From contig CAOKJI010000040.1 in the NCBI GenBank assembly GCA_948468495.1, positions 1 through 9,439 of the forward strand: a stretch of 9,439 bases of DNA, read 5' to 3'. The stretch comes from an uncultured Dorea sp. GTDB taxonomy: Bacteria > Bacillota_A > Clostridia > Lachnospirales > Lachnospiraceae. The translations under genes and the position numbers were made by a program. Numbering within the stretch: the stretch's first letter is position 1; the number at the start of each line of letters is the position of its first letter. Of this stretch, positions 1 through 9,439 are shown one piece after another. The notes under the pieces were generated by a model, which was not told the DNA's origin, searched no databases, and saw nothing but the letters and a program-made list of their open reading frames with translations.

Positions 1-1301
1 CCCTGATAGCAGATTTTAGCGCTGCGGATGGTTCCTTCTCCTGCATAATGGGTGAAATATCCGGCCCGGTATTTTTCCTGAATCAAGAAGGGATAGGACG
101 CGTCCTGCACATGCTTCGTCCCGATTCCCACCTCCCATTTCAGCTTCGCCGCATAGGGGCGCAAATCGAAAATTGCTCCGCCCTCATCCATATTAACGCC
201 GGCCCGCATGTAGGGGTCGGTATACCAGAACAACTGCTTATCAGAGCCATAGAGGATATCCCTCCACAGAGCGCACTCCGGCTCGGTATAATGCTTCTTC
301 TTCCGGTAATAGGCCGCAAATTCGGACATAGTCATGTCAATAAGCTTCCCTTCCTTTTTCAAATCGCCGTAATACTTACAGCCGTCGGAATAGGATTTTA
401 AGAGCAGCTCATAGGGGGCTTCCCAGCGTCCCATCTTATTCATCCAGCCGGGTCCTACAAACATCATATTATAAGCATAACCGTTATTATACTTCTCCTG
501 CGCCCGGTACTGATCAATTAAGTTATACAAATATGGGTATTCCCATGTTTTGGAATCATAAATCATCCCCCGCAGCACGTTCTGCGGATGGGTTCCAAAA
601 TTCGAGCCGTTGCCGTCATAGCAGGCCAGCAAATCTCTGGAAAGATGAGGAATCGCTACAATCCCGGAATCCTCAGCCTCATTGGCCGCCGGCGCATGGG
701 TGTTCTGCTTTGACGGAATCCAGGGAGCCCATGGGCCGCCGTCAAATAACGTATACCAGGAATTATTACAGGTATGGTAAGCTTTCGGCCCCTCTTCCCA
801 GCAGGTAGCAATGGCGCATTTCACCATAGGATACTTCGCTTTGATATAATTGGTCAGTTCTGCATCCATATAATAAGAGCCGGTAGATTCCGGGTAGAAA
901 CCGAACCGCTCATAAAACTTGGCAAATACGTCGTCCACAATCGTCTTCTTATCTTCCATCGAAAACATCCAGATACAGAAATCCTTCGTCTGATACTTAT
1001 CCCGGAACTGCTCGCAGGGAAGCCCAAGGAGCGACAAAGCAATCTCGTCCCCGTATTTCTTATGATCTTCCTTCGCAATCTGCACCGCCTCATCGTTAAA
1101 AAGCGCCGCATAGGTCATATGGATGGTAACCTTCAGTCCGTTCTCATGCGCAAGTCTCTGCTGCGTCCTGAAAATGTCCAGTGATTCGGTCAAAAGCTTC
1201 TTATCACCGATATCCTCTTCCTTACCATGACCGGTAACCGTAGCCGAGTACTCCGGTACCATCTCCGGTCTGTGAATGACGTTCAGAATAAATTCACCCA
1301 T
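1..1301 (-). CDS. Uncharacterised protein, possible carbohydrate-active enzyme (3' end cut by window edge)
   Basis: An open minus-strand frame of 433 codons runs from ATG at 1301 off the left edge without a stop. The start is fixed by the ribosome binding site AAGGAG nine bases upstream. There is no signal peptide, so the protein is probably cytoplasmic. Segments such as HMTYAALF (residues 61-68), KYGDEIALSL (82-91) and TGSYYMDAEL (140-149) resemble the strand-end His/Asp patterns of the glycoside hydrolase/deacetylase (beta/alpha)-barrel superfamily. The middle is very rich in Trp, Tyr and Gly (e.g. FDGGPWAPWIPSKQNTHAPA, 186-205), as in sugar-active enzymes. It follows the sugar importer operon but lies beyond a terminator, so it probably has its own promoter. 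A link to the DUF3863-type proteins is possible but is only from memory. The coding region is secure; the enzymatic role is inference. Confidence 0.8.
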   Translation of the reverse strand, partial: MGEFILNVIHRPEMVPEYSATVTGHGKEEDIGDKKLLTESLDIFRTQQRLAHENGLKVTIHMTYAALFNDEAVQIAKEDHKKYGDEIALSLLGLPCEQFRDKYQTKDFCIWMFSMEDKKTIVDDVFAKFYERFGFYPESTGSYYMDAELTNYIKAKYPMVKCAIATCWEEGPKAYHTCNNSWYTLFDGGPWAPWIPSKQNTHAPAANEAEDSGIVAIPHLSRDLLACYDGNGSNFGTHPQNVLRGMIYDSKTWEYPYLYNLIDQYRAQEKYNNGYAYNMMFVGPGWMNKMGRWEAPYELLLKSYSDGCKYYGDLKKEGKLIDMTMSEFAAYYRKKKHYTEPECALWRDILYGSDKQLFWYTDPYMRAGVNMDEGGAIFDLRPYAAKLKWEVGIGTKHVQDASYPFLIQEKYRAGYFTHYAGEGTIRSAKICYQ

Positions 1302-1378
1302 TCCTTTTGTCTCCTTCCTTCTATTAAAAATTGAAACATTGATTTTCCTTCTATGTAAAGCGTCTCAGTAATGCTCTG

Positions 1379-1417
1379 CCTCCCGCGATATAACCTTCCG
1401 GGAGGGCCAGACGCCCT
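1379..1417 (-). other. Overlapping hairpins in leader of the uncharacterised gene
   Basis: The 1302-1425 gap contains two small inverted repeats that share bases. CCTCCCG (1379-1385) pairs with CGGGAGG (1399-1405) around a 13-base loop, and AGGGC (1403-1407) pairs with GCCCT (1413-1417) around a 5-base loop. They cannot form at the same time because both use 1403-1405. Neither is followed by a T-run on the minus strand, so they are not terminators. No convincing promoter was found in this gap. The best minus-strand pair, TTTACA (1354-1359) with TTTCAA (1331-1336) at 17 bp, has a poor -10. Confidence 0.35.
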
Positions 1418-1425
1418 GTGAATTA

Positions 1426-1472
1426 CATAAAAATCCGGCACCCCAGCACAAATGACTGTAAGGGATGCCGGA
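1426..1472 (-). terminator. Intrinsic terminator of the ABC importer operon
   Basis: On the minus strand TCCGGCATCCC (1472-1462) pairs with GGGGTGCCGGA (1444-1434) over 11 positions, one of them a U-G wobble, around a 17-base loop. A run of five T follows at once (1433-1429). It lies about 75 bp after the stop of the MalG-like permease. The wobble pair becomes a C-A mismatch on the plus strand, so it reads as a minus-strand terminator. Confidence 0.85.
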
Positions 1473-1546
1473 CAACTCTTCTTATCATTTATTGTTCGTC
1501 AGTGAAGAAGCCGCCGTCTCTCTTCCTCTTATCACATAGGATACTT

Positions 1547-2377
1547 CTACTTCACCGCGCCTGTAATACCTTCTGCGAACTGTTTCTGCAATACGAAGAA
1601 TACAATCATTGTAGGAACCGAGCAGAATAATACGCCCAACATCAGAAGACCGTAGTCTGTGGTGTAGCCCGCCGCCATATTGGCAATCAGCATCGGCATC
1701 GTCTGCGCATTGGTATCCGTCATAATTACCTTCGGCCACAGGTATGCATTCCATGCATTCATGAAGGTAATAACCGCTGCCGCCGCATAAGTAGACTTCA
1801 TCATCGGCATATACATGCGGAAGAAAATCTGAATCTCTGTCAATCCGTCTATACGAGCCGCTTCCATAACGTCAATCGGGAAGTTTCTGGAATTCTGACG
1901 GAACATCATAATCAGAAACGGCGTGGAAATTGCGGGAAGGATAAAGCCCCATACGGTATTCAGCATATTCATGCCCGCAATCATTTTAAACAGAGGAATC
2001 ATCGTTGCAACTCCCGGAATCATCATGGCAAGGAGCAGGACGGTAAATACCATATCCTTCTTCTTATCATGGTAAAGCTCAAAACCAAATCCTGCCAGCG
2101 AACAAATCAGCAGCGCAATCACCGTCTGCACGACTGCATACAGGAAGGAATTTCCCATAGCTCCCCACAGATTCTGCCCCCCGATTAGGTTCTGGAAATT
2201 CACTCCCAGATTACCGCCCGGCAGAATCCTCCCCTGGGCGACATCAAAGGATGTATTGGTAGCCGCAGAAATCATCCAGTAGAATGGGAATACCGAAATA
2301 AATGATACAATTGCCAGGAAAATATATGTCGGAATTAACCGGCGCTGAATCATACTTCTGTTCTTTTTCTCAGTCAC
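1547..2377 (-). CDS. Sugar ABC transporter permease, MalG-like (CUT1 family)
   Basis: An inner-membrane subunit of a binding-protein-dependent sugar importer, about 276 residues, the usual size for the family. It has about six hydrophobic helices. The first is near residues 17-37, following a short basic N-terminus. The cytoplasmic EAA loop, EAARIDG followed by the FRMYMPMMK segment (about 172-194), docks the ATPase. The C-terminus ends in the family-typical FVLQKQFAEGITGAVK. I chose GTG at 2377 because AGGTGAT, part of the ideal Shine-Dalgarno sequence, lies five bases upstream. GTG at 2386 would add three residues but has no good site. The gene overlaps the end of the preceding permease by 8 bp, so the two are translationally coupled. 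It is the last gene before the terminator. Confidence 0.95.
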   Translation of the reverse strand: MTEKKNRSMIQRRLIPTYIFLAIVSFISVFPFYWMISAATNTSFDVAQGRILPGGNLGVNFQNLIGGQNLWGAMGNSFLYAVVQTVIALLICSLAGFGFELYHDKKKDMVFTVLLLAMMIPGVATMIPLFKMIAGMNMLNTVWGFILPAISTPFLIMMFRQNSRNFPIDVMEAARIDGLTEIQIFFRMYMPMMKSTYAAAAVITFMNAWNAYLWPKVIMTDTNAQTMPMLIANMAAGYTTDYGLLMLGVLFCSVPTMIVFFVLQKQFAEGITGAVK

Positions 2378-3269
2378 GCGTATCACCTACTTTCATATTA
2401 ATTAATGCCAGAATACCTACCATGATAAATACAAAGAATGCCATGGCTGTCGCATACCCAAAGTTCGCAACGCTGGTACCGAAGGTATTGTTGTAAATAT
2501 AATGGGACATGGTAATGGTTGAGAATGCCGGCCCGCCGTTGGTTAAGTTGATGGACTCGTCAAACAACTGTAAAGTACCGTTAATCGACATGATAAAGGT
2601 CATGATAATCGTCGGCTTTAAGAGCGGTACGGTAATTCCCCAGAAAGTCTTCCATCCGTTGGCTCCGTCAATCTTGGCTGCTTCGTATACGGAATACTCA
2701 ATGTTCTGCAAGCCAGCCAGATAGAATACCATATTATATCCGGTCCATCTCCAAATCAGAGCAATGATGATAACCGCTTTCGCGCTTGCCGCATTTCCCA
2801 GGAAATTATAATTCTCGGATAAAATACCAATATTTACCAGAATCGTATTAATTAATCCTTCTGTTGCAAATAAGGATTTAAAAATCAGGGAATAAGAAAC
2901 CAGCGCTGTCGCACAGGGAAGAAATACGCATGTACGGAAAAATCCCTTCAGTTTCAAATCCTTGTTATTCAGTAACTGAGCCAGTAAAATGGCCAGTACC
3001 AGCATAATCGGCACCTGAATCGCCAGATACAGGAAGGTGTTGCCTACGGAGCGTAAGAAAAGCTGATCCGCAAACATTCTGGTATAGTTATAAAAAATCG
3101 GGCTTGCCCACTCCATATTCGCACTGGAACCAGTTTTTAATGAAGTGATAAACGCGCTAATCATCGGCCAGAAGCTCATAACGGCAATCATCAGAGTTGC
3201 CGGAGCCAGGAATATCCAGCCGGCTCTTGACTGCTTCTCAAGCAGGCTCATTCCTTTTTTCTTTTCCAC
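2370..3269 (-). CDS. Sugar ABC transporter permease, MalF-like (CUT1 family)
   Basis: The partner permease of the importer, 299 residues. The N-terminus is basic, then a first helix at about 17-40 carries the family pattern GWIFLAPATL. Further helices lie near 77-100, 115-132, 165-187, 220-240 and 270-292. The EAA loop starts EAAKIDGANGW at 196 and ends ITVPLLKP at 219, the ATPase contact. The motif NLTNGGPAFST near the C-terminal part is typical of MalF-like subunits. The start is GTG at 3269, with GGGGG about seven bases upstream as ribosome binding site. The ATG six codons later has a site too close to it. It lies 82 bp after the binding-protein gene, with a hairpin between. No ATPase gene is present in the operon. 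Confidence 0.95.
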   Translation of the reverse strand: MEKKKGMSLLEKQSRAGWIFLAPATLMIAVMSFWPMISAFITSLKTGSSANMEWASPIFYNYTRMFADQLFLRSVGNTFLYLAIQVPIMLVLAILLAQLLNNKDLKLKGFFRTCVFLPCATALVSYSLIFKSLFATEGLINTILVNIGILSENYNFLGNAASAKAVIIIALIWRWTGYNMVFYLAGLQNIEYSVYEAAKIDGANGWKTFWGITVPLLKPTIIMTFIMSINGTLQLFDESINLTNGGPAFSTITMSHYIYNNTFGTSVANFGYATAMAFFVFIMVGILALINMKVGDTRD

Positions 3270-3287
3270 TAGAATTCCCCCTTCTCA

Positions 3288-3319
3288 ACAGAAAAGGGAA
3301 AACGGCAAACCGTTTTCCC
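3288..3319 (-). terminator. Leaky terminator/attenuator between binding-protein and permease genes
   Basis: GGGAAAACGG (3296-3305) and CCGTTTTCCC (3310-3319) form a perfect 10-bp stem with a 4-base loop. On the minus strand the stem is followed by TTTTCTGTT. It lies in the 82-bp gap after the binding-protein gene. Such hairpins are known in ABC importer operons to cut read-through, so that more binding protein than permease is made. On the plus strand it is followed, five bases later, by a run of eight T, but no plus-strand gene ends there. Confidence 0.75.
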
Positions 3320-3351
3320 CGTTCATTTTTTTTATTTTTATTTTGTCGAAA

Positions 3352-4689
3352 TTAGTTGCCCATCTCGAAGTTCAGCTGATCTTCCGCACCCTTAAGCTCT
3401 TCGTCAATGTCGCCGCCATTTACGATATTAATAACAGCAGCGCCGAGCTTCTCACGACAGGTGTAGTGGTATGGACTCTGCTCGATTGTCTGTACGTGAG
3501 ATCCCATCTCAGAAATCTCTGCGTAAATCGGAGTATTGTTGAAGAACTCTACGCCCTCATTGTAAACCTCAGACTCGCCTGCAGGAATGTAGGTAGAAAC
3601 AACGCCGCCATCCTTCAGTGCATTGTCATAGGTAACAGTACTCTTACCAAATGTGTAAGCAAGGAAATCTTTTGCAAGATCTGTCTTCTTGCAGTTAGCT
3701 GTAATGTACAGGGAAGAACCGCCGTTAGAAGCGTATCCGTCTCCGCCTTCCAGTGTAGGCATAGTTGTAATCTCCCATTTTCCGCTGTTAGCCTCTACAG
3801 CCTGAATGGTAGGAATAATCCAGTTACCGTTCATAACGCCTGCAACCTGATCGCCCTGGATTGCCTTATCTGTGTAATCTGACCAGCTGTTTGGAAGAAG
3901 AAGGATCTCTTCATTTACCATCTCTACTACCAGCTCAACGATCTCTTTGAGCTTGTCATTTCCTACGATAAACGGCTTGCCGTCCTTGAACTGGGAAACG
4001 CCCTCAGCCTGCAGCATCATGTACATCAAATCGTTGCCGTCGCTGTTCATGCAAAGAAGAGCCTTGCCTGTCTTCTCCTTAACTGCCTTGCCGACTTCGA
4101 TAAACTTCTCCCATGTGATGCCCTTCATGTCGTCCATTTTATAACCTGCCTCGTCCAGAAGGTCTACGCGATAAGCCATAATAACTGTACCGCCGTCTAC
4201 CGGAACGCCGTAGTGTACGCCGTCGATGGTAGAGTAGTCAAGCTTCTCTGCATAGAAGTCATCCCAGTTGATGTCGATGTCATCCACGTTCTGCCATGCA
4301 TCCGGATAATCCGCTACATACTTCTGAATCCAGTGATCCTGGAACAGAACCATATCCGGCAGAGTCTCGTACTTGCCTGAGGAAGCTGCTGTGGTAATAG
4401 CGGTCTCAACGTCCTGTGAGCCGCCCTGCTCTTTGATATCAAGAACAAAGTCTGAATTAACATTCTCCTTGTAGTCAGCCGCTGCTGCCTCAAGAGCCGG
4501 AATGTTGAAGTTCGGATCCCACGCTGCAACGGTCAGTGTGTTCTCGTCATCACTTGTACCCATCTCAGCAGCGCCTGCATCCCCGCCGTCACCTGCGTCG
4601 TCCCCACCGGTGCTTCCGCCACCGCCGCATGCAGCCAGGGAAAGAACCATGGTACCTGCAAGCAGCATTGAAATAAGTTTCTTTTTCAT
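3352..4689 (-). CDS. Sugar-binding lipoprotein of ABC importer (SBP family 1)
   Basis: The extracellular sugar receptor, 445 residues, usual for family 1 solute-binding proteins. A lipoprotein signal peptide (MKKKLISMLL..., 1-20) ends in the lipobox LAAC, so Cys21 would be lipidated and anchor the protein to the outer face of the membrane. A flexible Gly/Asp/Ala-rich linker covers about 22-48, then the binding fold begins. Family patterns seen are GVHYGVPVDGGT (157-168) and AGVMNGNW (283-290). Many Trp and Tyr residues suit sugar stacking. The ribosome binding site AAGGAGGA lies eight bases before ATG. It is the first gene of the importer operon, with its own regulated promoter upstream and an attenuator downstream. 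The substrate cannot be read from the sequence; a galactoside is suggested only by the neighbouring GH2 gene. Confidence 0.96.
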   Translation of the reverse strand: MKKKLISMLLAGTMVLSLAACGGGGSTGGDDAGDGGDAGAAEMGTSDDENTLTVAAWDPNFNIPALEAAAADYKENVNSDFVLDIKEQGGSQDVETAITTAASSGKYETLPDMVLFQDHWIQKYVADYPDAWQNVDDIDINWDDFYAEKLDYSTIDGVHYGVPVDGGTVIMAYRVDLLDEAGYKMDDMKGITWEKFIEVGKAVKEKTGKALLCMNSDGNDLMYMMLQAEGVSQFKDGKPFIVGNDKLKEIVELVVEMVNEEILLLPNSWSDYTDKAIQGDQVAGVMNGNWIIPTIQAVEANSGKWEITTMPTLEGGDGYASNGGSSLYITANCKKTDLAKDFLAYTFGKSTVTYDNALKDGGVVSTYIPAGESEVYNEGVEFFNNTPIYAEISEMGSHVQTIEQSPYHYTCREKLGAAVINIVNGGDIDEELKGAEDQLNFEMGN

Positions 4690-4737
4690 TCTCTATGTCC
4701 TCCTTTTTTTATCAGTTTATTCAGAAAGGCTTTTACT

Positions 4738-4749
4738 TATTGTGCAATA
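4738..4749. repeat. Small inverted repeat in leader of binding-protein gene
   Basis: TATTG-TG-CAATA is a perfect 5+2+5 inverted repeat about 36-47 bases after the predicted transcription start. The duplicated block upstream of AraC gene 2 keeps it with one change (7400-7411, TATCG-TG-CAATA). It could be an operator or a short RNA stem. Confidence 0.35.
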
Positions 4750-4920
4750 TGTATAGCTTTTCCCCTTTCCGCCACTGATTTTCTATGTATAATTATACTT
4801 ATTTCTCTTTTTCATTGTGTTTATATTCAATCAAAAAACAGGCATTTTCAACCAAGTTGTTCAATTATGCACAAAGACTTTCTGAGGATTTATGCGTTTC
4901 ATTGCCTGGAGCATATCCTC
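4742..4920. repeat. Duplicated promoter block, copy A
   Basis: This stretch aligns with 7404-7587 over its whole length, in the same orientation, with a 5-bp length difference near 4755-4770 and single-base gaps. The best part, 4828-4855 against 7495-7522, differs at one of 28 positions. Copy A covers the leader and promoter of the binding-protein gene and the last about 60 bp of the membrane-protein gene. Confidence 0.85.
4785..4853 (-). promoter_or_regulatory. AraC-activated promoter of the importer operon
   Basis: Minus-strand -10 TATAAT lies at 4797-4792. Seventeen bases upstream the -35 position holds ACACAA (4820-4815), a poor match to TTGACA, so an activator is probably needed. Just upstream of it are two direct half-sites, GATTGAATAT (4832-4823) and GGTTGAAAAT (4853-4844), exactly 21 bp apart (two helical turns). 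This is the standard arrangement for an AraC-family protein bound next to the -35. Expected start of transcription is near 4785, giving a leader of about 95 bases. The same elements at the same spacings recur at 7459-7520. Confidence 0.7.
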
Positions 4921-5376
4921 AGGAAGATCCAGAAGCAGTTTAATCTTTCTCTGGTTTTCTGTAATAATCATCGTATAATAAGGGACGTCCGGCTCATAGG
5001 AAGTATAGTCATATTTGGGAAGTCTCTCCGTACCACCTTTTAACCGGTACTTTGCCACTGCTTCATGCCAGTTAGGCGCAACCACCTCCAGATTCTTCAA
5101 ATCCAGCTCATGTTCCTCCCGGCGCCGGCGTCTTCCATGAATGACCGCAATTGTAAAGTTTGTTCCATCCATGACATATTCATAATCCTTTACACTGTTT
5201 GCCTCATAGATGAAATACATACCCGCTGTCAGAAGCGCCAGAAGCATCATCCCCCTATCCAGCAGAATACCCGACAAAAGAAACAGCACGCACATGACAA
5301 TCATCGTCTTTGACAGAATCTTTGTAGACGTCTTTATCCGCCGGTGAACCTGCTTTACCATCTTGTAATTCATCAT
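4861..5376 (-). CDS. Two-helix membrane protein of unknown function
   Basis: A 171-residue protein that I do not recognise with confidence. A basic N-terminus (KQVHRRIKTSTK, 8-19) leads into two hydrophobic helices at about 22-38 and 42-58 with a very short turn, so both ends should be cytoplasmic. The rest is a soluble domain of alternating beta-like stretches, with YEYVMDGTNFTIAVIHGRRR (66-85), an Arg-rich cluster at 82-86, and APNWHEAVAKY (100-110). It resembles the small PH-like domains fused to two-helix hairpins that are common in clostridia, but this is inference. The ATG is 3 bp after the stop of AraC gene 1, whose end carries the ribosome binding site AAGGATGG, so the two are coupled. 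The importer promoter starts directly after its stop. Decayed sequence matching its 3' end occurs at 7528-7587. Confidence 0.85.
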   Translation of the reverse strand: MMNYKMVKQVHRRIKTSTKILSKTMIVMCVLFLLSGILLDRGMMLLALLTAGMYFIYEANSVKDYEYVMDGTNFTIAVIHGRRRRREEHELDLKNLEVVAPNWHEAVAKYRLKGGTERLPKYDYTSYEPDVPYYTMIITENQRKIKLLLDLPEDMLQAMKRINPQKVFVHN

Positions 5377-5379
5377 CTC

Positions 5380-6312
5380 TTACCATCCTTTCAATGCACT
5401 GATTTTAAAGTCTAACATCTGACCCGCGTAGTTTTCCGGAGAGCGCTTCCATTGATAAGGCGTCTTATCCAGCATCCGCTTAAAATTCCGGTTAAATGTG
5501 GACACATTGCCGTATCCCACCCGGTAAGCGACCTCTTCCATCGTGGCGTGGCTCTTAAGAAGCAGATTGCTTGCCTCATGGATTCGGACTACATTCACAT
5601 AATCATTGGGCGTCATATTCATGCATTCCTGAAATATCCTCCGAAAATGGCTTTCGCTGATATTGCACTCATCCGCCAAATCCCGGATTCGGATTTCTTC
5701 GTTATAATGCTGCTTTACATAGGCAAGAGCCGGCGCGACCTGAAAGCTTCTGGGACTTTTCCTTGGCATTTCCCCCCGCACATTATGAATCCTTAAGAGT
5801 TCCACTACAAAAGACTGTAGAAGCCCTTTTAGTTTCTCCTTATACATATAGGCCTTCCGCTCACACTCCTCTCGGATTTCCATGATTGTCCGGCTGATCT
5901 TCTCATGTTCCTGCCGATGAAAAAATAGCGGGGACCCATATAATATATTTAGAAGATATTCTGTATTCAGCTTGCTGAAAGACAGCTCTTTCATCTCCTG
6001 AATCACGCTGTCCAAATCAAAATACATCCACTCCCAGTACGCGATTGTCCCCGGAACTGTCATATTATTATGCGGATAATTGGGCGGAACAATTGCGATA
6101 CATCCTTCCCCAAAGGTTTTGACAGAATCCTTCCATATACATTCCCCCTCTCCCTCGTAGCAGATACCGATTTCCATATAATTATGAAAATGCAAATCCG
6201 AAACATCATTCCCGTAGGGCCTCCTCCACTCTTCCCCCAAAAGCGCAAGCACCTGCTCATTTGCTCCCATTTCATAATATCTGAACTGCAGCTTTGGTTT
6301 TTTCTTTGCCAT
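5380..6312 (-). CDS. AraC-family transcriptional regulator 1
   Basis: A 310-residue regulator of usual family length. The N-terminal part is a cupin sensor domain: HFHNYMEIGICYEGEGE (41-57) and FGEGCIAIVPPNYPH (67-81) are its two metal- or sugar-site type motifs. Residues 130-175 form the linker helices. The C-terminal part holds two helix-turn-helix units: IRIRDLADECNISESHFRRI (207-226) and MEEVAYRVGYGNVSTFNRNF (258-277), followed by the family-typical KTPYQWKR. The ribosome binding site GGAGGAG is seven bases before ATG. It follows AraC gene 2 after 17 bp and precedes the membrane-protein gene, so the three form one transcription unit. It probably senses the sugar taken up by the importer and binds the 21-bp-spaced half-sites; which of the two regulators does this cannot be told from sequence. 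Confidence 0.94.
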   Translation of the reverse strand: MAKKKPKLQFRYYEMGANEQVLALLGEEWRRPYGNDVSDLHFHNYMEIGICYEGEGECIWKDSVKTFGEGCIAIVPPNYPHNNMTVPGTIAYWEWMYFDLDSVIQEMKELSFSKLNTEYLLNILYGSPLFFHRQEHEKISRTIMEIREECERKAYMYKEKLKGLLQSFVVELLRIHNVRGEMPRKSPRSFQVAPALAYVKQHYNEEIRIRDLADECNISESHFRRIFQECMNMTPNDYVNVVRIHEASNLLLKSHATMEEVAYRVGYGNVSTFNRNFKRMLDKTPYQWKRSPENYAGQMLDFKISALKGW

Positions 6313-6329
6313 AATGCATCTCCTCCGCC

Positions 6330-7160
6330 TTAAGACTGCATTCCCCGATACTCTGAAGGCGTACAGCTCTTATATTTTTTAAATACCTTTGAAAAATACA
6401 GATTATCCTCAAATCCAACCGAATGTGCAATACTTCCCACCGGAAGGTCCGTCTGATTCAGAAGCTGACAAGCCTGTCCAATCCGATATTGCAGCAGATA
6501 TTCCTTGGGCGACTGATTCAGCATCCCCTGAAACAGACGGAACAGATAGCTTCTGCTAACGCCTGTATAATCAGCCACATCCTCTACCGATATCGGATAG
6601 GAATACTGCTCGGCAATGTACTGTTTTGCCCGTTCCACGTAGTCTGCCTGCAGATTTGCAGGCCTTTTCTCCCCCTTCGTATGTTTCATCAAAAATCCCA
6701 TCAGGGAATATACGGCCCCTGTCATTGACACTGCATCCTGAAAGGTATTGCCGTTGGCCTCATAGACAGCCCGAATCTTCTCAAATAATTCTTCGCTGAT
6801 GTCCGACTGGTTCAGCACCGGATGCTCTCTTGAAAAATCTGTATTTGCAATCATGGAATAAGCGTCATTTCCCGCGAATCCTACCCATGCGTATTCCCAG
6901 GGCTCCTGTCTGTCGGCCTGATAACTGGATTCCACCTGTGGAAACAGCAAAAAAGTATCCCCAGACTTTAAGTGATATTCCTTTCCTCCCATTCTGTAAC
7001 AACCCCGGCCGCAGATAATATGGTGAAGCAGGTAATGATCCCGCACTCCGGGCCCCCATTGATAACCAGGGTGACACTTTTCATAACCTGTATTGTAGAC
7101 AGAGAGGGAATTTAACTGCCTGTCTGACGCATAGTAGGCATATCTGTATGTATCTGACAT
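6330..7160 (-). CDS. AraC-family transcriptional regulator 2 (MsmR-like)
   Basis: A 276-residue regulator. The N-terminal arm and sensor domain contain GYEKCHPGYQWGPGVRDHYL (25-44) and IICGRGCYRMGGKEYHLKSG (48-67), the pattern of the AraC-type sugar-sensing domain seen in MsmR-like regulators of sugar operons in Gram-positive bacteria. Two helix-turn-helix units lie at about 191-212 (SVEDVADYTGVSRSYLFRLF) and 241-264 (SIAHSVGFEDNLYFSKVF), ending in TPSEYR. I chose ATG at 7160 because AAGGAG lies six bases upstream; an in-frame ATG at 7181 lies upstream of that site and would add seven residues. It is divergent from the beta-galactosidase gene across about 620 bp of regulatory DNA and is first in the regulator transcription unit. 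Target sites in the gap suggest control of lacZ, of itself, or both. Confidence 0.94.
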   Translation of the reverse strand: MSDTYRYAYYASDRQLNSLSVYNTGYEKCHPGYQWGPGVRDHYLLHHIICGRGCYRMGGKEYHLKSGDTFLLFPQVESSYQADRQEPWEYAWVGFAGNDAYSMIANTDFSREHPVLNQSDISEELFEKIRAVYEANGNTFQDAVSMTGAVYSLMGFLMKHTKGEKRPANLQADYVERAKQYIAEQYSYPISVEDVADYTGVSRSYLFRLFQGMLNQSPKEYLLQYRIGQACQLLNQTDLPVGSIAHSVGFEDNLYFSKVFKKYKSCTPSEYRGMQS

Positions 7161-7403
7161 CGGACGTCTCCTTATTTGCATAAAATATAGAAATGCTCAT
7201 TCCTGCCAAAAAGAAAGCAAGACAAACATTTCATTTCCGAATTGTATACAGTACCGGAACAAGTCTGTAACTATGATATAATTCCCTGTGGAACTGCCTG
7301 AAAAGGTCGCTGTTAGAACATGCTATAAAGAGAAAAAACAGACTGTGCAAAGCGGGCCCTGCCGGATACGAAATCACATAACCCCTGGCACAACCTCTAT
7401 ATC
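7161..7403. other. Non-coding leader region of AraC gene 2
   Basis: About 240 bp between the AraC gene 2 start and duplicated copy B with no credible gene. A possible local minus-strand promoter is TTGGCA (7209-7204), a 16-bp gap and TATTTT (7187-7182); it would start transcription only a few bases before the ribosome binding site, so it is doubtful. An interrupted dyad TTCCG (7235-7239) / CGGAA (7255-7259) encloses the palindrome TGTATACA. If the copy-B promoter is active, this region is a leader of about 290 bases. No terminator is seen in it. Confidence 0.4.
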
Positions 7404-7451
7404 GTGCAATATCTATAGATATCGGACCCATTCCTTTTCCACTAATTCTAT

Positions 7452-7520
7452 ACGTGTGATTATACTGATTTTTTTCTTCTATTGTGTTCATATTCAATCC
7501 AAAAACAGGCATTTTCAACC
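7452..7520 (-). promoter_or_regulatory. AraC-type promoter of the regulator genes (copy B)
   Basis: Minus-strand -10 TATAAT is at 7464-7459 and the weak -35 ACACAA at 7487-7482, with a 17-bp gap. Half-sites GATTGAATAT (7499-7490) and GGTTGAAAAT (7520-7511) are again 21 bp apart. All distances equal those at the importer promoter. It points to AraC gene 2, whose start codon lies about 290 bases downstream, and suggests autoregulation by the protein that controls the importer. Confidence 0.6.
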
Positions 7521-7527
7521 AATATGC

Positions 7528-7587
7528 TCAAATATGCACAAAACTTTTTTATGAATTTATCTGCTTTATACTCTGGAACATATTTCA
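7528..7587 (-). pseudogene. Decayed 3' end of a second copy of the two-helix membrane-protein gene
   Basis: Read on the minus strand, these bases align with the last about 20 codons of the gene at 4861-5376, including a TGA at the matching place (7530-7528). The copy has lost bases near its upstream end, and its aligned frame contains two TAA codons, so it cannot be translated like the original. No further match to the gene was found beyond about 7590. It explains why a promoter of this locus sits here: a segment was duplicated and then mostly lost. Confidence 0.55.
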
Positions 7588-7628
7588 TTTTCATTAGATG
7601 AACCCCTCTTTTATCATTGAAACAGGAC

Positions 7629-7700
7629 TATTTTATGCAACATTTTTCCATGTTTTTGCATCTATTTTATATTGCATATTTTTCGGGACAATCACATAAT
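7629..7700 (+). promoter_or_regulatory. Promoter and candidate operator of the beta-galactosidase gene
   Basis: Plus-strand -35 TTGCAT (7672-7677), a 17-bp gap and -10 CATAAT (7695-7700) fit a sigma-A promoter; the leader would be about 73 bases. Upstream lie ATGCAA (7635-7640) and TTGCAT (7656-7661), 21 bp apart, readable either as an inverted repeat or as two direct half-sites TTTATGCAAC/TTTTTGCATC. The distal site lies in TATTTTATGCAA (7629-7640), which recurs exactly on the minus strand just upstream of AraC gene 2 (7187-7176). Confidence 0.55.
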
Positions 7701-7733
7701 GGAACTAACAATATGAATGGAAAGAAATTAGGA

Positions 7734-7766
7734 CGGAATCCATCCTGCCAGACAGGACAGATTCCG
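7734..7766 (+). promoter_or_regulatory. Leader hairpin next to the lacZ ribosome binding site
   Basis: CGGAATC (7734-7740) pairs with GATTCCG (7760-7766). Inside, TCCTG (7743-7747) pairs with CAGGA (7753-7757) around loop CCAGA, with a symmetrical CA/CA internal loop between. One base later comes AGGAGG (7768-7773). No T-run follows, so it is not a terminator. It may stabilise the message or tune access of the ribosome. Confidence 0.6.
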
Positions 7767-7779
7767 CAGGAGGTTAGCT

Positions 7780-9439
7780 ATGTTTGACTACAGCAAAATC
7801 AAAAACGTTACATTCTACAAAGAAAATGTAATGCCGGCGCATTCCGACCATGTATACTTCCCGGATGAAGAGTCTTTGAGAGCCGGGGAGAATCCGTTCC
7901 GCTATTCCTTAAACGGTATATGGAAATTCTCTTATGGAAGGAATCTGGACGAGACAATAAAGGGCTTTGAGCAGGCGGACTATAATTGTAAGAACTGGAG
8001 CGACATCCGGGTACCCGCCCACATTCAGATGGAGGGATATGATGTTCCGGCATACGTGAATACCCAGTATCCCTGGGATGGCCGGGAAGATATCTGGGCC
8101 GGAGAAATTCCCACTGAATTTAATCCTGTCGCCAGCTATGTGAAATATTTTCACGTACCGGAACAGATGAAAGGACAGGCGTTATACATCTCCTTCCAGG
8201 GCGTGGAAAGCGGTATGGCGCTGTGGCTGAACGGACAATACGTGGGCTACAGCGAAGACAGCTTTACTCCCTCTGACTTTGATTTGACGCCTTATCTGAC
8301 GGAAGGTGAGAATAAGTTAGCCCTGCAGGTCTATAAGTGGACCAGCGGAAGCTGGGCGGAAGATCAGGACTTTTACCGTTTCTCCGGGATTTTCCGGGAT
8401 GTATATTTATACACAAAGCCCGCAGTGCATATCGAAGATTTGAAGATTCAGGCGCTTCTTGATGATACTTATACAAAGAGTACGCTAAAAATCAATGTAA
8501 AATCCCAGGGACGCGGATTCGTGCGGATGATTCTCTCTGAGATGCCGCTGTACCGTTTTCCGGGAAGCGCTGTAACCGATTTAGGAGAAGAAGCTAATCG
8601 AGAAGTGGCGAAGGCCGAATTTACTCTGTCAGATGGAAAAGGAGAACTTACCCTTCCTCTGGAATGTATGAAGCTCTGGAGCGCAGAAGAACCGAATCTG
8701 TACGAACTGCTTCTGACTGTTACCGATGAGCAAGGAGTAATCACCGAAGTCATCGCTGCCGGAGTGGGCTTCCGCCGGTTTGAAATGAAAGACCATATGA
8801 TGTGCTTAAATGGCAGAAGAATCGTATTCAAAGGCGTAAACCGCCATGAATTCAGCTCCGTAGCGGGACGCGTTCCACAGCCGGAAGAACTAATCCAGGA
8901 CATTATTACCATAAAACGACACAACATCAATGCGATTCGTACCTGCCATTACCCGAATGATTCCCCGCTGTACAATCTCTGCGACGTATATGGACTCTAT
9001 CTGATTGACGAAACTAACATGGAAACCCATGGCTCCTGGGACGCAGTCATGCGGGGAGGCGATTACGAACTTGCCATTCCCGGAGATAAACCGGAATGGG
9101 AGGACCCTCTCCTTGACCGGGTAAATTCTATGTACCAGCGGGATAAGAACCATCCTTCTATCCTCATCTGGTCCTGTGGAAATGAATCTTACGGCGGACT
9201 TGTGATTAAGAAAATGTCAGATAAATTCCGGGAACTGGACGATACCAGACTGGTCCATTATGAAGGCGTGTTCCAGGACCGCCGCTATAACGAAACCAGC
9301 GATATAGAAAGCCAGATGTACACTCCTGTTTCCACGATTGAAGCTTTCCTGTCCAAACACAGAGATAAGCCGTTTATCTGCTGCGAATATACCCATGCCA
9401 TGGGCAATTCCTGCGGCGCCATGCACAAGTATACGGATT
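7780..9439 (+). CDS. lacZ: Beta-galactosidase, glycoside hydrolase family 2 (3' end cut by window edge)
   Basis: The first 553 residues of a LacZ-type enzyme that cleaves terminal beta-galactose; full-length relatives have about 1000 residues, so roughly half is present. There is no signal peptide, so it acts in the cytoplasm. Order: N-terminal sugar-binding domain (VPAHIQMEGYDVPAYVNTQY, near 87-106), immunoglobulin-like domain, then the catalytic barrel from about 340. Matching E. coli LacZ, the acid/base is Glu469 (SCGNES, E. coli Glu461) and the nucleophile Glu536 (CCEYTHAMGNS, E. coli Glu537). Glu415 and His417 (NMETHG) match the magnesium ligands; His356 (NRHEF) and His390 (CHYPN) match the substrate histidines. 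The sodium ligand Asp201 is Ser189 here. AGGAGG lies six bases before ATG. It is divergent from the regulators. GH2 is certain; the exact natural galactoside is not. Confidence 0.96.
   Translation, partial: MFDYSKIKNVTFYKENVMPAHSDHVYFPDEESLRAGENPFRYSLNGIWKFSYGRNLDETIKGFEQADYNCKNWSDIRVPAHIQMEGYDVPAYVNTQYPWDGREDIWAGEIPTEFNPVASYVKYFHVPEQMKGQALYISFQGVESGMALWLNGQYVGYSEDSFTPSDFDLTPYLTEGENKLALQVYKWTSGSWAEDQDFYRFSGIFRDVYLYTKPAVHIEDLKIQALLDDTYTKSTLKINVKSQGRGFVRMILSEMPLYRFPGSAVTDLGEEANREVAKAEFTLSDGKGELTLPLECMKLWSAEEPNLYELLLTVTDEQGVITEVIAAGVGFRRFEMKDHMMCLNGRRIVFKGVNRHEFSSVAGRVPQPEELIQDIITIKRHNINAIRTCHYPNDSPLYNLCDVYGLYLIDETNMETHGSWDAVMRGGDYELAIPGDKPEWEDPLLDRVNSMYQRDKNHPSILIWSCGNESYGGLVIKKMSDKFRELDDTRLVHYEGVFQDRRYNETSDIESQMYTPVSTIEAFLSKHRDKPFICCEYTHAMGNSCGAMHKYTD

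Follow-up and report, generated by a model that had tools for sequence, protein, structure and literature searches.

A predicted sugar-type importer promoter occurs in a second copy upstream of an AraC regulator operon in an uncultured Dorea sp.

In a stretch of 9,439 nucleotides from an uncultured Dorea sp. (assembly GCA_948468495.1, contig CAOKJI010000040.1, positions 1 to 9,439; hereafter the window), a block carrying the predicted promoter of a sugar-type ATP-binding cassette (ABC) importer operon occurs twice in the same orientation. Copy A (4738-4916, minus strand) comprises the importer-operon promoter and the 3' end of the upstream gene, while copy B (7400-7583, minus strand) reads towards an operon of AraC gene 2 (AraC2), AraC gene 1 (AraC1) and a gene for a 171-amino-acid protein, as the initial annotation had proposed in placing it in front of AraC gene 2. 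The minus-strand order is AraC2, AraC1, the 171-amino-acid gene, copy A, the binding-protein gene and two permease genes. The reading that we favour, with a probability of about two in three, is that copy B arose in this lineage as a duplicate of the importer promoter and that AraC1 would activate both copies, thereby also activating the operon that encodes it. Neither promoter capture nor AraC autoregulation is new in itself, but their combination at this locus is.

Local alignment of the two copies yields 144 identical bases among 176 aligned and 11 gap letters, with a blastn E value of about 1e-29 against a database of the fetched loci and the window, and the pair forms the longest direct-repeat family in the window. 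The same-orientation repeat of the initial annotation is thereby recovered and its 28-base core is indeed identical at 27 positions, but its ends are displaced, lying at 4738/7400 and 4916/7583 rather than at 4742/7404 and 4920/7587. Copy A, which lies where the importer promoter must be, contains a predicted activator site at 4814-4849, consisting of a direct repeat, GAAAATGCC-N12-GAATATAAAC, with 21-bp spacing and then CACAAT in the -35 region, a -10 hexamer TATAAT at 4792-4797 with a predicted start near 4785, and a downstream element, CTATACATATTGCACAATA, at 4738-4756. The equivalents in copy B are found at 7481-7516, at 7459-7464 (TATAAT, predicted start near 7452) and at 7400-7418 (CTATAGATATTGCACGATA), all of these features being on the minus strand. 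An AraC-type direct repeat with 21-bp spacing is thus placed 16-17 bp before TATAAT. With gap columns counted as mismatches, the copies agree at 34 of the 36 positions of the activator repeat, all six of the -10 and 17 of the 19 of the downstream element, whereas the spacer agrees at 14 of 20 columns and the initial transcribed segment at 15 of 41, in agreement with the earlier view that the elements and their spacings are kept while their surroundings have diverged. Approximately 57 nt of the block is not promoter, positions 4861-4917 being the coding end of the 171-amino-acid gene.

Among related loci (the best 80 of the 436 relatives found, designated by L numbers; genomes are given G numbers), an alignment of the importer upstream regions recovers GAAWATGCC-N12-GAATATAAAC with its 21-bp period, an ACRCAAT box, 16-17 bp, TATAAT and, downstream, TATACANATTGCACAA. 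A position weight matrix (PWM) for the 36-bp part, trained on 15 sequences that include copy A of the window and of L039 and leave out both B copies, exceeds a score of 10 ahead of the binding-protein gene in 44 of the 80 loci (the training loci fall within the 44, of which the more distant are non-training loci), and a TA..AT hexamer follows the motif after 16-17 bp in 38 of these. Across the 80 loci and both strands the matrix produces 60 hits in 2.65 million positions. A strict pattern allowing up to three mismatches matches, among 41 genomes, only G001 (twice), G004 (twice) and G009 (once), and a slightly longer one matches, among 397 family genomes, only G001 (twice); every match is at this locus, and both patterns are too stringent to match more divergent relatives. 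From these comparisons the importer promoter appears old and specific, and copy A looks ancestral. The confinement of the strict pattern to these sites would fit one dedicated regulator, as had been suggested in the initial annotation.

When copy A was compared with 61 genomes, two matches each were found in G001, the genome nearest to the window, and G004, one in G009, and one short, weak match in each of three more distant genomes (E values of 1e-4 to 4e-4). Judging from identical matches, G004 apparently corresponds to L039, and G009 likewise to L027, and each pair is counted once. A third copy of the block was not found in G001, which is 82% complete, and with just two copies in G001 and in G004 a dispersed mobile promoter or miniature inverted-repeat transposable element (MITE) family is ruled out. 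Copy B itself was detected in the window, G001 and G004/L039 alone.

The direction of copying, from A to B, is indicated by a scar in copy B. At 7528-7584 (minus strand) lies a decayed, in-frame copy of the last 57 nt of the 171-amino-acid gene, identical at 40 of 57 positions and interrupted by an internal stop. No second close copy of this gene occurs in 21 genomes, where a single 28% match is found in G009. Given the in-frame tail and the lack of a second close 171-amino-acid gene, copy B most likely derives from copy A; the latter observation also argues against a paralogous source locus, while the tail of the locus's own gene argues against horizontal regulatory transfer from another genome. 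To the left of the gene tail no homology rises above shuffled sequences, and the region downstream of copy B was rejected as a decayed binding-protein gene, its alignment score not exceeding that of shuffles (p=0.25). The 218-bp stretch separating copy B from AraC2 (7182-7399) is matched only in G001 and G004 among the 61 genomes. Within it, TATGTGATTTCGTATCC (7364-7380, AraC2 leader) is identical in the window and L039, although identity around it is 66%. In L011, an inverted repeat that by eye resembles a MITE (AGAGCGTGTCTGAAAATT ...) is situated at 6867-7283, between the AraC2 promoter and the AraC2 gene.

Five relatives (L011, L017, L026, L027 and L032) share the gene order and possess AraC2, and neither blastn nor the PWM finds copy B in their gap between the glycoside hydrolase family 2 (GH2) gene and AraC2. 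TTGYAK-N17-TATAST precedes AraC2 in all five and in none of the three genomes with copy B; in the window, G001 and L039 the native -35 is kept and there is no -10 at 17-bp spacing. The site of the lost -10 in the window (7612-7617, minus strand) reads ATGATA, compared with TATACT or TATAGT in the five relatives. The old -35, TTGCAT at 7635-7640, falls in a conserved control region between the divergent GH2 gene and AraC2 (7633-7675, assigned to neither strand), which in the direction of AraC2 reads ATGGAAAAATGTTGCATAA and is possibly a site of AraC2. Relatives with AraC2 intact and no copy B had been named in the initial annotation as a case that would speak against its reading; they do occur, but since a native-looking promoter stands there instead, they look ancestral rather than degenerate. 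Judged by sequence, both the trace of origin, in the form of the gene tail, and the disabled former promoter are thus present, as would fit promoter capture by duplication. With the core of the original regulator promoter gone, the activator probably now drives its own expression.

Whether copy B is maintained was evaluated at the columns where the A copies of the window and L039 agree, a column being conserved when shared by at least nine of ten relatives' importer copies. The ten leave out L010 (a twin of L009), the distal L011 copy lacking a -10, and L012, whose importer copy is not in the alignment. Copy B of the window keeps 38 of 42 conserved columns versus 44 of 67 others (one-sided Fisher p=0.0026), and that of L039 keeps 38 of 42 versus 39 of 67 (p=0.0002). 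With cut-offs of 8/10 and 10/10 the window gives p values of 0.0077 and 0.045 and L039 of 0.0019 and 0.00028. When the match pattern is rotated, 4 of 108 controls for the window and 0 of 108 for L039 come up to the observed count. By this measure copy B is under constraint, and the selection claimed for it is borne out in a test built on relatives without copy B. An alternative in which copy B is a decaying, functionless relic of a duplication, the AraC2 operon starting elsewhere, for instance in 7182-7399, would explain why identity of the inserted region between L039 and the window drops to 58-67% beyond the activator repeat and -10, why the gene tail inside copy B is dead, and why a generic promoter scan reports, instead of copy B, a weak site at 7209-7182. 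It is nevertheless unlikely, as both B copies preferentially keep the columns conserved in relatives, among them those of the -10, all three genomes with copy B have lost the native -10, and the 7209-7182 site ends at the AraC2 start codon in a scan that returns 7 sites versus 7.4 in shuffles.

The likely binder of both copies is AraC1 and not AraC2, the gene that copy B faces. In 32 of the 38 motif-bearing loci whose upstream flank exceeds 2 kb, an AraC1 homologue (tblastn E<=1e-8, identity down to about 32%) lies in the same direction within 2.6 kb, and AraC2 is present in six of the 38. The AraC1 helix regions SExHFRRxF and STFNRNF, which we take to have a role in DNA recognition, are for the most part conserved across the window and 32 motif-bearing loci (L037 and L085 of 34 candidates being left out, and L069 and L072 being among the exceptions) and are different in AraC2. 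A predicted site on the regulator's own operon is found upstream of AraC2-AraC1 in three genomes and of AraC1 in five loci. That AraC2 itself binds both copies could be argued from the position of copy B directly upstream of its gene, but is very improbable given how rarely, compared with AraC1, it accompanies the motif. Less remote, yet still improbable, is that the same regulator acts on both copies as a repressor, or through a DNA loop over 2,667 bp, resulting in negative autoregulation. AraC-type proteins can repress by looping and the kept downstream TTGCAC element could be an operator; however, the direct repeat adjoins a weak -35, a usual position for activation, and single-copy loci keep the same layout.

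If AraC1 is instead an activator of both copies, as favoured here, it would bind the 21-bp direct repeat adjoining the -35 and recruit RNA polymerase to both, so that expression of the importer and activator operons would increase jointly through positive feedback. The divergent beta-galactosidase gene keeps its old control region, perhaps read by AraC2; as AraC2 would increase in the same loop, the hydrolase would follow. Copy B could plausibly have originated when the regulator unit and its promoter were duplicated in tandem and the first unit was then lost save for a gene tail and the promoter. The reading of the initial annotation is in this way partly upheld, although the dead gene tail, the lineage restriction of copy B, the lost native -10 and AraC1 as the likely binder had escaped it.

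Several observations weigh against this reading. The inserted region evolves fast, with 58-78% identity by segment between the window and L039 (the A copies of the two are 89% identical), and the two B copies resemble each other (0.73) no more than the window's copy B resembles its own copy A (0.75). The AraC1 tree places L039 beside L011, a locus lacking copy B, instead of beside the window (support 76), a topology at odds with one clean gain of copy B. AraC1 homologues also occur in 19 of 30 loci without a strong motif, some of the distant ones may be other AraC proteins, and L018 has the motif and no AraC1 homologue in its 2.2 kb flank. Activation rather than repression is read from the position of the site alone. 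The generic promoter scan of the window lists neither copy, shows no excess of sites over shuffles, and places its weak site at the start of AraC2. No source was found for 7182-7399 either, a search of a plasmid collection with 7182-7400 having returned no match.

Promoter copies are also found directly before AraC1, as well as before the importer, in L009, L010, L012, L013 and L014. AraC2 is absent from the examined DNA of these five loci, and their AraC1 proteins form one clade (support 100). In an identity table, which was used for the promoter blocks in place of a tree, the AraC1 copy of L014 is closest to its own importer copy, being identical at 57 of the first 60 aligned bases, suggesting a further event or gene conversion, whereas that of L013 shares more with copy A of the window (0.80) than with the importer copy of L013 itself (0.69). 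Before the importer of L011 the block stands in tandem, its additional copy lacking a -10. The importer tree joins the window with L039, and L009/L010 with both. The importer and AraC1 trees conflict on the placement of L009/L010 and of L039, with weak support at several nodes; two captures are likely and a third is possible. A tentative extension, to which we give somewhat less than even odds, is that the importer promoter is a module captured repeatedly by activator genes at this locus, by AraC2 in the window lineage and AraC1 in the L009-L014 clade, each capture creating a self-amplifying switch. The DNA-binding module would have been kept and a leader hairpin left behind, so that transcriptional and post-transcriptional control would part along a clean boundary.

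This hairpin (4711-4779, minus strand) is predicted around the downstream element of the importer leader, upstream of the Shine-Dalgarno sequence, and is absent in copy B. It is present in all 15 close-group importer leaders, including two near-twin pairs, with z scores of -2.1 to -5.8 against dinucleotide shuffles, while none of seven regulator-side copies reaches -2 (range -1.4 to +1.1), the folded stretches being 56-81 nt and 61 nt long, respectively. Since the stems shift register, arms were swapped between species rather than aligned column by column. Across 13 of the 15 leaders (near twins L001 and L010 left out), arms pair more strongly within a species (mean -11.1 kcal/mol) than between species (-6.2 kcal/mol; permutation p=5e-5), L018 being contrary at rank 9 of 13. 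The species-specific, complementary arms make the hairpin a candidate post-transcriptional element; Rfam has no family in the window at its gathering threshold. On either strand, TTGCACAA, a sequence associated with the downstream element (4738-4756 in the window), occurs in 22 of 80 importer leaders versus 22 of 8193 control windows, although the related loci are not independent. The TTGCAC downstream element is kept in both copies and, as it persists in regulator-side copies without the hairpin, may act as DNA.

Promoter propagation in prokaryotes, in which a promoter sequence occurs in several copies before different genes, was reportedly described by Matus-Garcia et al. in 2012. The present locus is similar in having more than one promoter copy in a genome, before different genes, but differs in that the searched genomes contain two copies at one locus rather than a dispersed family, and in that the newly targeted operon encodes the likely activator of the promoter itself. 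Promoter capture by deletion or tandem duplication, in which an existing promoter is moved before another coding region and silent genes are activated (PMC11111574), likewise involves a rearrangement that sets an existing promoter before a different coding region. Unlike the cases in the available part of that source, which concern silent genes, the regulator operon here has exchanged its own conserved promoter, and the copy is common to more than one species. Horizontal regulatory transfer or intergenic switching (Oren et al. 2014, via PMC5890482, as far as outlined there) also replaces the regulatory region and retains the gene, but the new region here would stem from 2.7 kb away in the same locus and not from another genome. 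AraC-family sites with half-sites 21 bp apart in direct repeat occur at sugar-gene promoters (PMC3870299); the periodicity in the alignment and PWM is the same, whereas, relative to the sites given in the portion consulted, the half-site sequence (GAAWATGC ... GAATATGCAAAC) and the sugar system differ. A full-text literature search found no mention of this locus, which does not prove its absence from print.

Were this reading correct, a single sugar-uptake locus would preserve both the state before capture, in the five relatives with a native promoter before AraC2, and the state after it, in copy B with its dead gene tail, alongside an apparent parallel case before AraC1. The gain of autoregulation by an activator would be directly testable with natural sequences. 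The locus further indicates which parts of a promoter region survive copying and which do not, and would represent a concrete example of the rewiring of gene control by promoter copying.

The importer operon begins with the gene for the sugar-type ABC substrate-binding protein (3352-4689), followed by two permease genes (2370-3269 and 1547-2386), and the regulator operon comprises AraC2 (6330-7181, the first gene downstream of copy B), AraC1 (5380-6312, the proposed activator for both copies) and, last, the 171-amino-acid gene (4861-5376), all on the minus strand. The AraC regulators match the Pfam families HTH_18 and AraC_binding, while the 171-amino-acid protein matches neither Pfam nor NCBIfam. 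A gene for a LacZ-type GH2 beta-galactosidase (7780-9438, plus strand), truncated by the end of the window, runs divergently from the regulator operon. At 3-1301 (minus strand) a further protein, for which searches of Pfam, NCBIfam and PDB gave no match, extends over at least 433 amino acids and is 92-96% identical over its length in ten close relatives.

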